Made by a program: the position numbers and the translations under genes. From Sphingobacteriales bacterium 44-15 (GTDB taxonomy: Bacteria > Bacteroidota > Bacteroidia > Chitinophagales > Chitinophagaceae), in assembly GCA_001899685.1 (NCBI GenBank), contig MKWG01000037.1, forward strand, positions 345,651 to 409,650: a stretch of DNA of 64,000 nucleotides, given 5' to 3'. Shown here piece by piece: positions 6,310 through 56,305 of the stretch (position 1 is its first letter; every line of letters starts with the position of its first letter). The notes below the pieces were generated by a model. It was not told the DNA's origin, made no database searches, and saw only the letters and a list, made by a program, of their open reading frames with translations.

Positions 6310-6396
6310 GGAGAGATGCCAGAGTGGTTGAATGGGACGGTCTCGAAAACCGTTGTACGGGCAACTGTACCCAGGGTTCGAATCCCTGTCTCTCCG
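6310..6396 (+). tRNA. tRNA-Ser (anticodon CGA)
   Basis: A cloverleaf of 87 bases. Acceptor GGAGAGA pairs with TCTCTCC, followed by discriminator G. The anticodon stem ACGGT/ACCGT encloses the loop CTCGAAA with anticodon CGA, reading UCG. A long variable arm follows (TGTACGGGCAACTGTACC), as expected for tRNA-Ser, and the T arm contains GGTTCGAATCC. The 3' CCA is not encoded. Confidence 0.95.
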
Positions 6397-23733: not shown

Positions 23734-23903
23734 TGGGATATACTCTGGTTTGGCAAAAGCTATAGCGCTACGAAGCAACTGTTGCCGCAGTTTATCCCGC
23801 TCCTAAAATGGCTCATTCTTTGTACGTTTTGCATGAAATATTAGGGATATTGTACTTTGCATCAAGAGCCATCTTAGTATATGTAATGAATAAACCTGTT
23901 GTA

Positions 23904-26057
23904 ATGAAACATATTCTTCACCTGTTCCTGCTTTTCATAATGAGTTCCGCAAAAGCGTTTGCTGCAGTCCCGCCAGTCATTACTTTTTATGTGTCTCCTT
24001 CGGGAAATGACGCATGGTCCGGCAGGTTGGCTGATGCCAATGCTACGGGCACTGACGGCCCTTTCAGGACTTTAGAAAAAGCAAGAGAACAAATAGAACA
24101 GCTCAATGCACAAAAGCAAATGCCCGGCAAAGGCATTGAGATCATTATCCGCGGCGGCGACTATACCATCAATAAGACATTCATATTATCCCGAGAAAGC
24201 AGCGGAAATGCTAATGTGAAGATCACCTGGAAGAATTATCCCGGGGAGAAAGTGCAATTGACAGGCGATAAAGAGATCTCAGGATTTCATTCTATAACGG
24301 ATACGGACATCCTGAAAAGGATAGATCCCGCTTTCAGAAATAATATTATGGAAGTTGATCTGAAAGCAATGGGAATAACAGACTATGGAAATATTACCAA
24401 TCGTGGCGGGCCGGGCACAGAGCTTTTTTTCAACGGTAAAAAAATGCCTTTGTCAAGATGGCCTAATGAAGGATGGGCAAAAATAGCCGATGTGCCTCAA
24501 ACAGGCGAACTGGTATTTGAGGGCGATCTGCCGCATAAGCGGTTTGGCATTCCGGTAGGGAGGCACTATGGAAAATTTACTTATAGTGAAGACCGGCCCG
24601 CCAGATGGTCTGATATCAGCAATATTTTCCTGCATGGCTACTGGACATGGGACTGGTATGATGAGCTGCTGCATATTCAATCCATAGATACCGCTGCCAA
24701 AACGATTTATATCAAGCCCCCGCACTCCCATTATGGTCTGTCAAAAGACCAACGTTACTATGCGCAGAATATACTGGAGGAGCTTGATATGCCGGGAGAA
24801 TGGTATCTTGACCGCACCCGGGGAAAATTATATTTCTGGCCACCCGCCTCCCTGACTGGTGCTAAGGTTTTTATTTCCCTGCTCGATCAGCCCTTGATGC
24901 AGTTAGACCAGGTAGAGAACACACATATAGAGAGCGTCCTCTTTGAGTTTTCGCGCGGCAACGGGCTGGTAATAAATGGTGGAAGGAACAATACGGTCAG
25001 CGGTTGCACTTTTGACAATCTGGGTAATAATGCTGTGCTGATCAATGGCGGAGAAAAAAACGGGGTTTCCTCCTGCAATATATATGATGTGGCCTGCGGT
25101 GGCATTATATTAATTGGCGGCGACCGGAAGACGCTTACACCGGCAGGGAATTTTGCCATCAATAATGATATACATGATATCAGCCAGTGGATAAGAACTT
25201 ACCAGCCTGCCGTTAACATTACCGGTGTGGGCAATTATATTGCGCACAACCGCATTCATGAAGGCCCGGGCGCCGGCATATTGCTCAATGGCAACGAGCA
25301 TATCATAGAGTATAATGAGCTGTTTGACCTGGCGCTGGAGACCGGCGATGTGGGCGGGTTTTATATGGGGCGCGACTGGACGGAGCGGGGAAATATTATC
25401 CGCTACAACTATTTCCATGATCTTACCGGGCCGGGAGCGCATGATGTAAATGCAGTATATCTTGACGACTGGGCGAGCGGAACTACTGTAACAGGCAATA
25501 TATTTTCAAATTGCGCAAGAGGCATTATGATCGGAGGTGGCCGGGATAATATGGTAGACAATAATATTTTTGTCAATTGCAATCTTGCGGTACATGTGGA
25601 TTCACGTGGATTGGGCTGGGCAGCTTATTATTTTAACGGCACCACCAATACCCTGTTTGAAAGAATGGATGCTATGAACTATAAACAACCTCCGTATTCT
25701 GAAAAATACCCGGCATTACTTTCCCTGTATGCAGATGAGCCTGCTGTGGCAAAGCACAATAACATCATGCATAATATAGCTTACGGAGGTCGCTGGCTTG
25801 ACCTGCACGACGGGCTTGATCTGAAAATTGTACATGTGCACGATAACCTGTTATCTGATGTAACAAAGACCTACAGCAACGACAGTGATATAGTAGCTAA
25901 CGGCAACCCGTGGATATATAATATCGGGGATAAGGATTTCAGGGTAAAGCCTGAAGCAAACCGGAAAGGATTTAAAGCCATTCCCTATAATAAGATTGGC
26001 TTACAGAAGGATGCATTCAGGGTGCAGCCTCAAAAATCTTTTGCTTACAAAAACTAG
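23904..26057 (+). CDS. secreted right-handed parallel beta-helix protein (carbohydrate-active, GH141-like)
   Basis: Secreted protein of about 717 residues. A signal peptide (MKHILHLFLLFIMSSAKAFA) is followed by FYVSPSGNDAWSGR and GPFRTLEKAREQI, the standard opening of pectate-lyase-like beta-helix enzymes. Residues about 380-620 contain many Asn-ladder repeats (NGLVINGGRNNTVSGCTF, NNAVLINGGEKN, GNIFSNCARGIMIGGG, DNMVDNNIF). The protein resembles GH141/DUF1565-type enzymes acting on plant or algal glycans, but polysaccharide lyase activity cannot be excluded. An alternative start at 23886 adds six residues. The TAG stop abuts the 121-bp element that begins at 26058. Confidence 0.85.
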   Translation: MKHILHLFLLFIMSSAKAFAAVPPVITFYVSPSGNDAWSGRLADANATGTDGPFRTLEKAREQIEQLNAQKQMPGKGIEIIIRGGDYTINKTFILSRESSGNANVKITWKNYPGEKVQLTGDKEISGFHSITDTDILKRIDPAFRNNIMEVDLKAMGITDYGNITNRGGPGTELFFNGKKMPLSRWPNEGWAKIADVPQTGELVFEGDLPHKRFGIPVGRHYGKFTYSEDRPARWSDISNIFLHGYWTWDWYDELLHIQSIDTAAKTIYIKPPHSHYGLSKDQRYYAQNILEELDMPGEWYLDRTRGKLYFWPPASLTGAKVFISLLDQPLMQLDQVENTHIESVLFEFSRGNGLVINGGRNNTVSGCTFDNLGNNAVLINGGEKNGVSSCNIYDVACGGIILIGGDRKTLTPAGNFAINNDIHDISQWIRTYQPAVNITGVGNYIAHNRIHEGPGAGILLNGNEHIIEYNELFDLALETGDVGGFYMGRDWTERGNIIRYNYFHDLTGPGAHDVNAVYLDDWASGTTVTGNIFSNCARGIMIGGGRDNMVDNNIFVNCNLAVHVDSRGLGWAAYYFNGTTNTLFERMDAMNYKQPPYSEKYPALLSLYADEPAVAKHNNIMHNIAYGGRWLDLHDGLDLKIVHVHDNLLSDVTKTYSNDSDIVANGNPWIYNIGDKDFRVKPEANRKGFKAIPYNKIGLQKDAFRVQPQKSFAYKN

Positions 26058-26178
26058 TGTTATGTCAACAATTATTTTTCGTATTTCTTTGTGAGAGGTG
26101 AGACTTGCCTACCGGCAGGCAGGCGATAAATGTGAGGACCTCACATTTGTCGTCTGTCGTTTCACGTTTGACATAACA
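26058..26178. repeat. 121-bp terminal-inverted-repeat element, copy A
   Basis: Ends are TGTTATGTCAA and TTGACATAACA, a perfect 11-bp terminal inverted repeat. Flanks are CTAG (26054-26057) and TTAG (26179-26182), close to a 4-bp target duplication. The 47-bp core, from TTGCCTACCGGCAGGCAGG to CTCACATTTGTC, lies between AGAC and GTCT. The element begins immediately after the TAG stop of the beta-helix gene. Copy B (48719-48839) has the same length and arms, but its core is inverted relative to the arms. No coding capacity. A second stretch of repeat words (GTGAATGGTGAATAG with CGCATTCACC) follows at about 26215-26262. Confidence 0.85.
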
Positions 26179-26289
26179 TTAGTGTTGCATTAACCATAAT
26201 ATACCGCATAATTTTGTGAATGGTGAATAGTCAATAAATTCACGATTGCGCATTCACCCGGACAATTATCATTAATTCCAGCAATATGC

Positions 26290-31457: not shown

Positions 31458-31502
31458 TCCTACAAATTATAACGTGAATGTTAATACAATATCGTATAAC
31501 CT

Positions 31503-31563
31503 GCAGGCGCCATCAGCCCAAAAAGATGAGCGGTTCAATTAGGAAGACACCATTTCCTTTTAG
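31503..31563 (-). promoter_or_regulatory. fluoride riboswitch (crcB motif)
   Basis: On the minus strand the leader contains, in order, AAAGGAAATGG, TTCC, AACCGC, GGGCTGATGGCGCCTGC. This reproduces the conserved skeleton of the fluoride riboswitch: the GG-GATGG 5' strand, the pseudoknot AACCGC and GCUGAUG followed by CCU. It starts a few bases after the predicted transcription start and ends about 45 bases before the CLC-F ATG. Expected action: fluoride binding turns the operon on. The sequence between it and the ATG is short and without a strong T-run terminator, so control may act on translation. Confidence 0.88.
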
Positions 31564-31570
31564 CAAAGTG

Positions 31571-48678: not shown

Positions 48679-48718
48679 AGACTGGCTAATAAAACGATTT
48701 AAAATAGGTGAAGAGTAG

Positions 48719-48839
48719 TGTTATGTCAAACGTGAAACGACAGACTTGCCTACCGGCAGGCAGGCGATAAATGTGAGAATCTCACATTTATCGTCTCACC
48801 TCTCACAAAGAAACACGAAAAATTATTATTGACATAACA
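48719..48839. repeat. 121-bp terminal-inverted-repeat element, copy B (core inverted relative to copy A)
   Basis: Ends TGTTATGTCAA and TTGACATAACA are identical to copy A. It is flanked on both sides by GTAG (48715-48718 and 48840-48843), an exact 4-bp direct repeat. Read on the opposite strand, its arms align almost perfectly with those of copy A. The 47-bp core bounded by AGAC and GTCT is reversed: the TTGCCTACCGGCAGGCAGG block is at the other side of the CGATAAATGTGAG palindrome. Only three base differences are counted between the cores after inversion. No coding capacity. Confidence 0.85.
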
Positions 48840-48857
48840 GTAGGATACAATTGTATC

Positions 48858-52974: not shown

Positions 52975-53090
52975 TGCTATGTCAAACGTGAGAGGCTGAA
53001 GCATTCACTATTCACCATTCACTATTGCCCTGCTCACCTTTATCGTCTCACTTTTCACGATAGACATAATTGGCTTGATTTAGCACTAGC
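52975..53090. repeat. third, diverged copy of the terminal-inverted-repeat family (copy C)
   Basis: It begins directly after the TAG stop of the HIT gene with TGCTATGTCAAACGTGAGAGG and ends with CACGATAGACATAA, a short insertion, and AGCACTAG. The outer words TAGTGCTA (52972-52979) and TAGCACTA are inverted repeats of each other. The interior (CACTATTCACCATTCACTATTGCC, CACCTTTATCGTCTCAC) is different from copies A and B but uses the same family words. Confidence 0.6.
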
Positions 53091-56071: not shown

Positions 56072-56305
56072 AAAGAAGAAATGAAAGATAAAATTAAGGA
56101 TTGGAGCCGGCATTTACAAACAGGCGGGCGCATTCCGGTTTTTCGCTTCAAAAACAAGAATACAATAACAGACTACTTGCGGGATGGTGAAAAGATTTTG
56201 ATGCTATTGTCAGCATGAATGTATGATGCAGATTATAGTGTTAAGTCTAGTAAATTATGTCTGTGGATTATTGTGAAAAGTGAAAAGATAAAGGTGAAAA
56301 ATATT

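Follow-up and report, generated by a model that had tools for sequence, protein, structure and literature searches.

The window, which is the whole stretch of 64,000 nucleotides analysed here, contains two repeats of 121 bp each (copies A and B) that have perfect 11-bp inverted ends (TGTTATGTCAA) and that both lie between converging genes according to the ORF calls. Copy A starts directly after the ORF at 23808-26057, whose TAG stop is inside the flank CTAG. Both copies consist of two arms, a hairpin, and a 19-bp module, and the module is placed on opposite sides of the hairpin in the two layouts F and R:

26058..26178, plus strand: copy A, whole element, F layout with the module left of the hairpin (sequence, BLAST)
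26054..26057, no strand: left flank of copy A, CTAG, containing the TAG stop of the ORF (sequence, ORF list)
26179..26182, no strand: right flank of copy A, TTAG, one mismatch to the left flank (sequence)
26058..26103, plus strand: left arm of copy A, with GAGA at its end (sequence)
26105..26123, plus strand: 19-bp module of copy A, TTGCCTACCGGCAGGCAGG, a 20-bp unit when the C at 26104 is included (sequence)
26125..26151, plus strand: 27-bp hairpin of copy A with 12-bp stems and the 3-nt loop GAC (folding, sequence)
26153..26178, plus strand: right arm of copy A (sequence)
48719..48839, minus strand: copy B, whole element, R layout with the mirrored module right of the hairpin (sequence)
48715..48718, no strand: GTAG, low-side target duplication of copy B, exact (sequence)
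48840..48843, no strand: GTAG, high-side target duplication of copy B, exact (sequence)
48794..48839, minus strand: left arm of copy B (sequence)
48766..48792, minus strand: 27-bp hairpin of copy B with the loop ATT (sequence)
48746..48764, plus strand: 19-bp module of copy B (sequence)
48719..48744, minus strand: right arm of copy B (sequence)

A sequence-only reading had described two copies of equal length with matching arms, an apparently inverted 47-bp core, and the flanks GTAG/GTAG (copy B, exact) and CTAG/TTAG (copy A), and direct comparison bears this out. With copy B read on the minus strand, there are three differences in the first 47 bases, and the last 27 bases are the same in both copies. 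Between the 47-bp cores, 38 positions differ when they are read straight and 3 after flipping. The 27-bp hairpins alone have three differences flipped and four unflipped, and therefore the A/B pair by itself cannot separate an inversion of the whole core from a transfer of the insert only. In single-stranded DNA folding, each strand of copy A and of copy B exceeds shuffled sequences in stability (z from -4.75 to -6.56). The 19-bp insert has two matches within the window versus 0.01 expected, and the 121-mer of copy A gives 77 BLAST pieces in the genome containing the window (6.0 Mb in 46 contigs). Chance or an assembly artefact as the origin of A and B was rejected because both layouts are present in many copies and on many contigs. 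A terminator scan near copy A found none, and in the whole window Rfam reported, at the gathering threshold, only a tRNA (6310-6396, plus strand) and a fluoride riboswitch (31497-31566, minus strand), neither of them at the elements.

Family size, insertion sites and spread

A covariance model built from 15 bare copies was run on the genome and on 11 congeners, with at most 150 candidates scored per genome. In the source genome it gave at least 131 matches, a number in which palindromic copies count once per strand. Each of the 11 congeners has 0 to 9 among the matches listed. In the source genome 102 non-redundant places were read, 88 of which have recognisable arms that passed the arm filters, and 63 copies have both ends within 3 mismatches. 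An exact 4-bp target duplication surrounds 17 of these 63 intact-end copies (shuffle mean 4.5, with none of 5000 shuffles as high), and the identical test for duplications of 3, 5, or 6 bp found none in the 63 copies. Because exact 4-bp duplications are present at 17 instead of the 4.5 expected places, the element is regarded as MITE-like. The flanking sites show a preference for CTAG, TTAG, and similar sequences, and the flanking 4-mers are direct duplications of varied YTAR-like sequences (e.g. GTAG/GTAG and CTAC/CTAC). The copies are transposon-like insertions, and the family, with its roughly 100 short members, is likely to be one of non-autonomous transposons (MITEs). A MITE-like nature had already been proposed from the two copies, and is supported by the high copy number, the small size, the inverted ends that the copies have in common, and the target duplications of 4 bp.

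None of 40 copies that were read with 1 kb on each side is inside an ORF of at least 100 aa, and nine of the 40 directly touch a stop codon. The neighbouring genes of these copies are in tandem 24 times, convergent 12 times, and divergent 4 times, compared to 18, 8, and 8 of the gaps in the window, and a preference for a certain gene orientation was therefore dropped as showing no clear bias. The copy L016 (G000:C24:45009-45108) is located exactly between the stops of two converging ORFs, both of which end with its CTAG duplication. The window also contains a 111-bp element of a second subfamily at 52975-53085 (TGCTATGTCAA...TTGATTTAGCA, with the flanks ATAG and CTAG), which does not carry the module, and at 56239-56299 a fragment of the other end of this subfamily, TGTTAAGTCTAGTAAATTATGTCTG, followed by GTGAAAAGTGAAAAGATAAAGGTGAAA.

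A transposase with these ends was not found among the three families searched (PF01609, PF13546, and PF13751). For PF01609, 30 loci were checked and end-like pairs were present at ten, none of them with equal 4-bp flanks. PF13546 was found in none of the 12 genomes, and PF13751 in two of the 12, with no end pair there. The DDE_5 domain of IS701 is absent from the 12 genomes searched. The source genome has seven exact-end pairs that are 600-5000 bp apart. By eye, no transposase was recognised among the ORFs listed at three of these pairs (on C2, C28, and C7), and the other four (on C11, C22, C27, and C36) join ends of separate small elements. On C2, the outward ends of L033 and L069 (G000:C2:133701-135208) flank one gene, which presumably resembles a YeiH-type transporter, and would delimit a composite of 1508 bp. 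No match to the element was obtained in plasmid and phage collections. The right-arm pattern has two look-alikes in the named genome collection (L124 and L125; Segetibacter MAG and 'Bacterium BMS3Abin03'), where GTTTCACGTTTGACATAACA is found beside TTTCACGTTT-like repeats and no full element is present. The copies were presumably spread by a transposase that is supplied in trans and that would generate 4-bp duplications at YTAR-like sites.

Like MITEs, the family is short, multi-copy, and provided with inverted ends and 4-bp duplications, and it has no room for a transposase gene. However, the searches above found no parent IS, and the core of this family has an exchangeable module that gives it mirror-image layouts. 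The CTAG/TTAG-like sites with 4-bp duplications resemble those of IS5-type elements, for which PMC10359306 gives YTAR as target motif, but no such transposase with these ends was found here. IS701 makes 4-bp duplications as well, according to PMC2266710.

Module polarity is tied to the arm

Bare copies are about 101 bp long and have the core GAGA CGATAAATGTGAG nnn CTCACATTTATCG TCTG. In the F copies, a C and the 19-bp module, or a form extended by 20 bases to 39 bp, are found between GAGA and CGATAAA. In the R copies, the reverse complement of the insert is located between TATCG and TCTG. The inserts of F and R are thus at the identical base of the stem, viewed from either side. Among the 88 copies, the left site carries the module in one polarity 16 times, and 19 copies carry it, with mirrored polarity, at the right site (19 and 22, respectively, with looser patterns), and the patterns for the wrong polarity gave 0 and 0. 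The polarity of the module is tied to the arm that carries it. The 19-bp and the 39-bp module are both present in both layouts. One copy (C43:311374) combines the start of the module as in F with its end as in R and does not have the hairpin, which has also been lost in some forms of 75-92 bp.

The segment comprising module and hairpin is bounded by AGAC/GTCT and lies within imperfectly mirrored arms. Of the 32 bare copies, four have outer arms mirrored at 24 or more of 26 positions versus 1.6 expected (314 of 10,000 shuffles were as high). Taking all 88 copies, six reach at least 12 of 13 positions versus 3.3 expected (93 of 5000 shuffles). Homogenisation of the outer arms in the family is therefore modest only.

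Origin of the mirrored layouts

The apparent inversion of the core may result from a GC-rich 19/39-bp hairpin module that was placed at exact mirror positions on the arms of a central palindrome by replication template switching or gene conversion, and this is the explanation that we tentatively favour, giving it a little less than an even chance. Because the stem (GAGACGATAAATGTGAG / CTCACATTTATCGTCT) is its own reverse complement, pairing in the inverted register is possible, and a nascent strand, or a second copy, could pair with the stem in this register. Copying would then proceed from the stem into the module and switch back where AGAC/GTCT marks the junction, so that the module would end up on the opposite arm. 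In this way a single step could convert a bare copy into R, with an F copy as donor and without the hairpin being turned. According to PMC8604942, template switching between short inverted repeats homogenises arms and inverts spacers, within or between molecules.

The exact mirror placement and polarity, with 0 and 0 placements in the wrong polarity, count for copying in the mirror register, as do the two module lengths in both layouts and the C43:311374 copy with its F start and R end. The few copies with near-perfect mirrored outer arms fit modestly. The only modest outer-arm mirroring over the 88 copies counts against it, and so does the lack, among these 88, of any copy in which both arms carry a full module, although such a double-module copy would be the expected intermediate for switching within a copy.

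If the whole core had been inverted, the loop and the small differences in the stem should have turned, too. The loop GAT is found in 9 of 14 F copies and 9 of 22 R copies, and the flipped loop ATC in none of the 22 R copies, one of the 14 F copies, and one of the 32 bare copies (Fisher p = 1e-4, which is overstated by the common descent of the copies). The motif GGATTTCAC is present in two bare copies, three F copies, and four R copies, whereas none of the 68 copies has it in flipped form. The nearest F or bare hairpin of the R copies is unflipped in 14 cases, flipped in 3, and tied in 5 (n=22), and the control, F hairpins compared to bare ones, gave 6, 3, and 5 (n=14); all these counts of F, R, and bare copies overstate the number of independent events because the copies are of common descent. 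Scored with a profile of the F copies, 14 of the 22 R copies appear unflipped and 8 flipped. The R copy C36:62796 looks flipped (best match 2 flipped versus 3 unflipped).

It is unlikely that module and hairpin generally turned as one block, be it by spacer inversion during template switching or by recombination at short inverted repeats. The cores of A and B would agree with such a turn, given their 3 differences in 47 positions after flipping, and the same is true for C36:62796 and the minority of R copies with flipped-looking hairpins (8 of 22 by the F profile), which count against copying in the mirror register. Spacer inversion is also a reported outcome of template switching (PMC8604942). 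However, the flipped loop is missing from all R copies, unflipped nearest hairpins prevail over flipped ones by 14 to 3, and the block is bounded by AGAC/GTCT only. Both core layouts exist in many copies; F and R were seen at different sites, in one assembly per species. The earlier proposal that the core flips via short inverted repeats is not supported as a general account: the bounding repeats are 4 bp long, the hairpin orientation is kept in most R copies, and what distinguishes the layouts is a separable module of 19/39 bp, which is also found without these arms throughout the genus. An exchange at a cruciform, which had been offered as second option, comes close to the mirror-register copying favoured here.

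An arm tree was computed from 81 rows and 72 columns and is weak, with 6 of 78 inner branches starred. The F copy C43:386356 and the R copy C36:65504 are sisters on this tree (support 99/94). Both have the arm text ATCTTTTGTATTTC, which is in no other copy among those listed, and GGATTTCACATTTATC is unflipped in both, and they carry the 39-bp module on different arms. This pair and the mostly unflipped hairpins of the R copies count for copying in the mirror register. The weakness of the tree counts against it, together with the finding that F copies are clustered (4 of 500 label shuffles as low) while the clustering of R copies does not exceed that of shuffled labels (340 of 500).

The 19-bp module (up to 2 mismatches) was found in 11 of the 12 genomes of the genus, with the reversed control at 0 in each. 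Of 27 newly fetched congener loci, 24 were readable by pattern, and these 24 have the module in other surroundings and without these arms. The 21 distinct flanks of the congener units contain neither a common target sequence nor a 4-bp duplication, and those listed have no target sequence in common with GAGA/CGATAAA. In the G011 genome, tRNA-Arg-like copies are interrupted by the unit CCTGCCTGCCGGCAGGCAGG at two points, one at the D loop and one following the anticodon loop (L255, G011:C448, reverse strand). The comparison of empty sites revealed that the intact tRNA-Arg beside them (76 bases) has exactly these sites empty, and there is no target duplication. By eye, tRNA-like D arms at L260, L270, and L271 also carry the 20-bp unit.

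These data bear on another explanation, according to which a mobile 20-bp unit was inserted independently in each arm, the mirror site being used since both arms present the same sequence or fold. It is favoured by the presence of the module in nearly all genomes of the genus, by the loci without these arms, and by the two exact insertion points next to an empty site in G011. Insertion of the unit alone and without target duplication in other species counts against mirror-register copying, as a second independent insertion would be possible, and because the unit was found alone in tRNA genes, the chances of mirror-register copying had to be lowered and those of separate insertion raised. But the 21 contexts do not have a target in common with GAGA/CGATAAA, and an unspecific process would have reached the exact mirror base, with matching polarity, only by coincidence. 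It also counts against separate insertion that the 19-bp and the 39-bp forms are both mirrored. Separate insertion is considered rather unlikely.

The 39-bp form is present at 32 places in the source genome. At five places of the second subfamily, which were recognised by eye (L225, L237, L241, L247, and L248), it is located beside a GTGAGAC-like arm, as in F, and therefore F is probably the older layout. The R form is also found in another species of the genus (L073), and is thus at least partly old. This would be expected if a single old R founder of whatever origin had been spread onto different arms by ordinary recombination and transposition between copies, and the scatter of R on the arm tree and the two module lengths in R are in line with it. 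However, a mirror event would still be needed for the founder itself, and F x R exchange inside the hairpin should have led to double-module products, which the 88 copies do not include. A single founder is quite improbable as the explanation.

It is conceivable, although we put this forward with more reserve than the mirror-register copying as such, that the 20-bp palindrome is mobile by itself and inserts precisely and without duplicating the target, even into tRNA genes of related species, and that mirror-register copying then carries the unit to the exact mirror site on the other arm of the palindrome of the mini-transposon. The architecture would be reshuffled without a recombinase, and a record of template switching would be kept. 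For A and B, too, separate insertion of the module or block inversion may apply.

Relation to template switching and to other repeat families

Template switching at short inverted repeats has so far been known from small mutation clusters. The homogenisation of arms and inversion of spacers likewise involve palindrome-guided copying between arms, but few bases were changed in the cases of PMC8604942, whereas here a whole module of 19-39 bp would be carried across the axis. With about 100 copies of one palindrome and a movable marker module, one could count in nature how often such events occur, in which polarity, and of what size they are. If mirror copying is true, the family is a natural record of DNA-copying errors. 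In addition, the family shows how a micro-palindrome found throughout the genus was incorporated into a lineage-specific mini-element, and it is a warning that a recombinase need not be behind a core that is inverted between two copies of a repeat.

In the literature searched, mostly outside subscription journals, neither this family nor any module placed at mirror sites about a palindrome was found to be described, and the palindromic 20-mer was not found in any paper. REPINs have inverted GTAG-type tags outside their palindromes. REP/REPIN sequences are multi-copy intergenic palindromes as well, and some flanks here are GTAG or CTAC, but the flanking 4-mers of this family are direct duplications and not inverted tags, and it does not have the inverted GTAG-type tags. 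The BOX elements of streptococci are composite repeats in which the inner module boxB is common to differently ended elements (PMC3049150). The family is also a composite repeat with an inner module, but the number of boxB varies within an array, whereas here a single module occupies one or the other of two sites that mirror each other across a palindrome.
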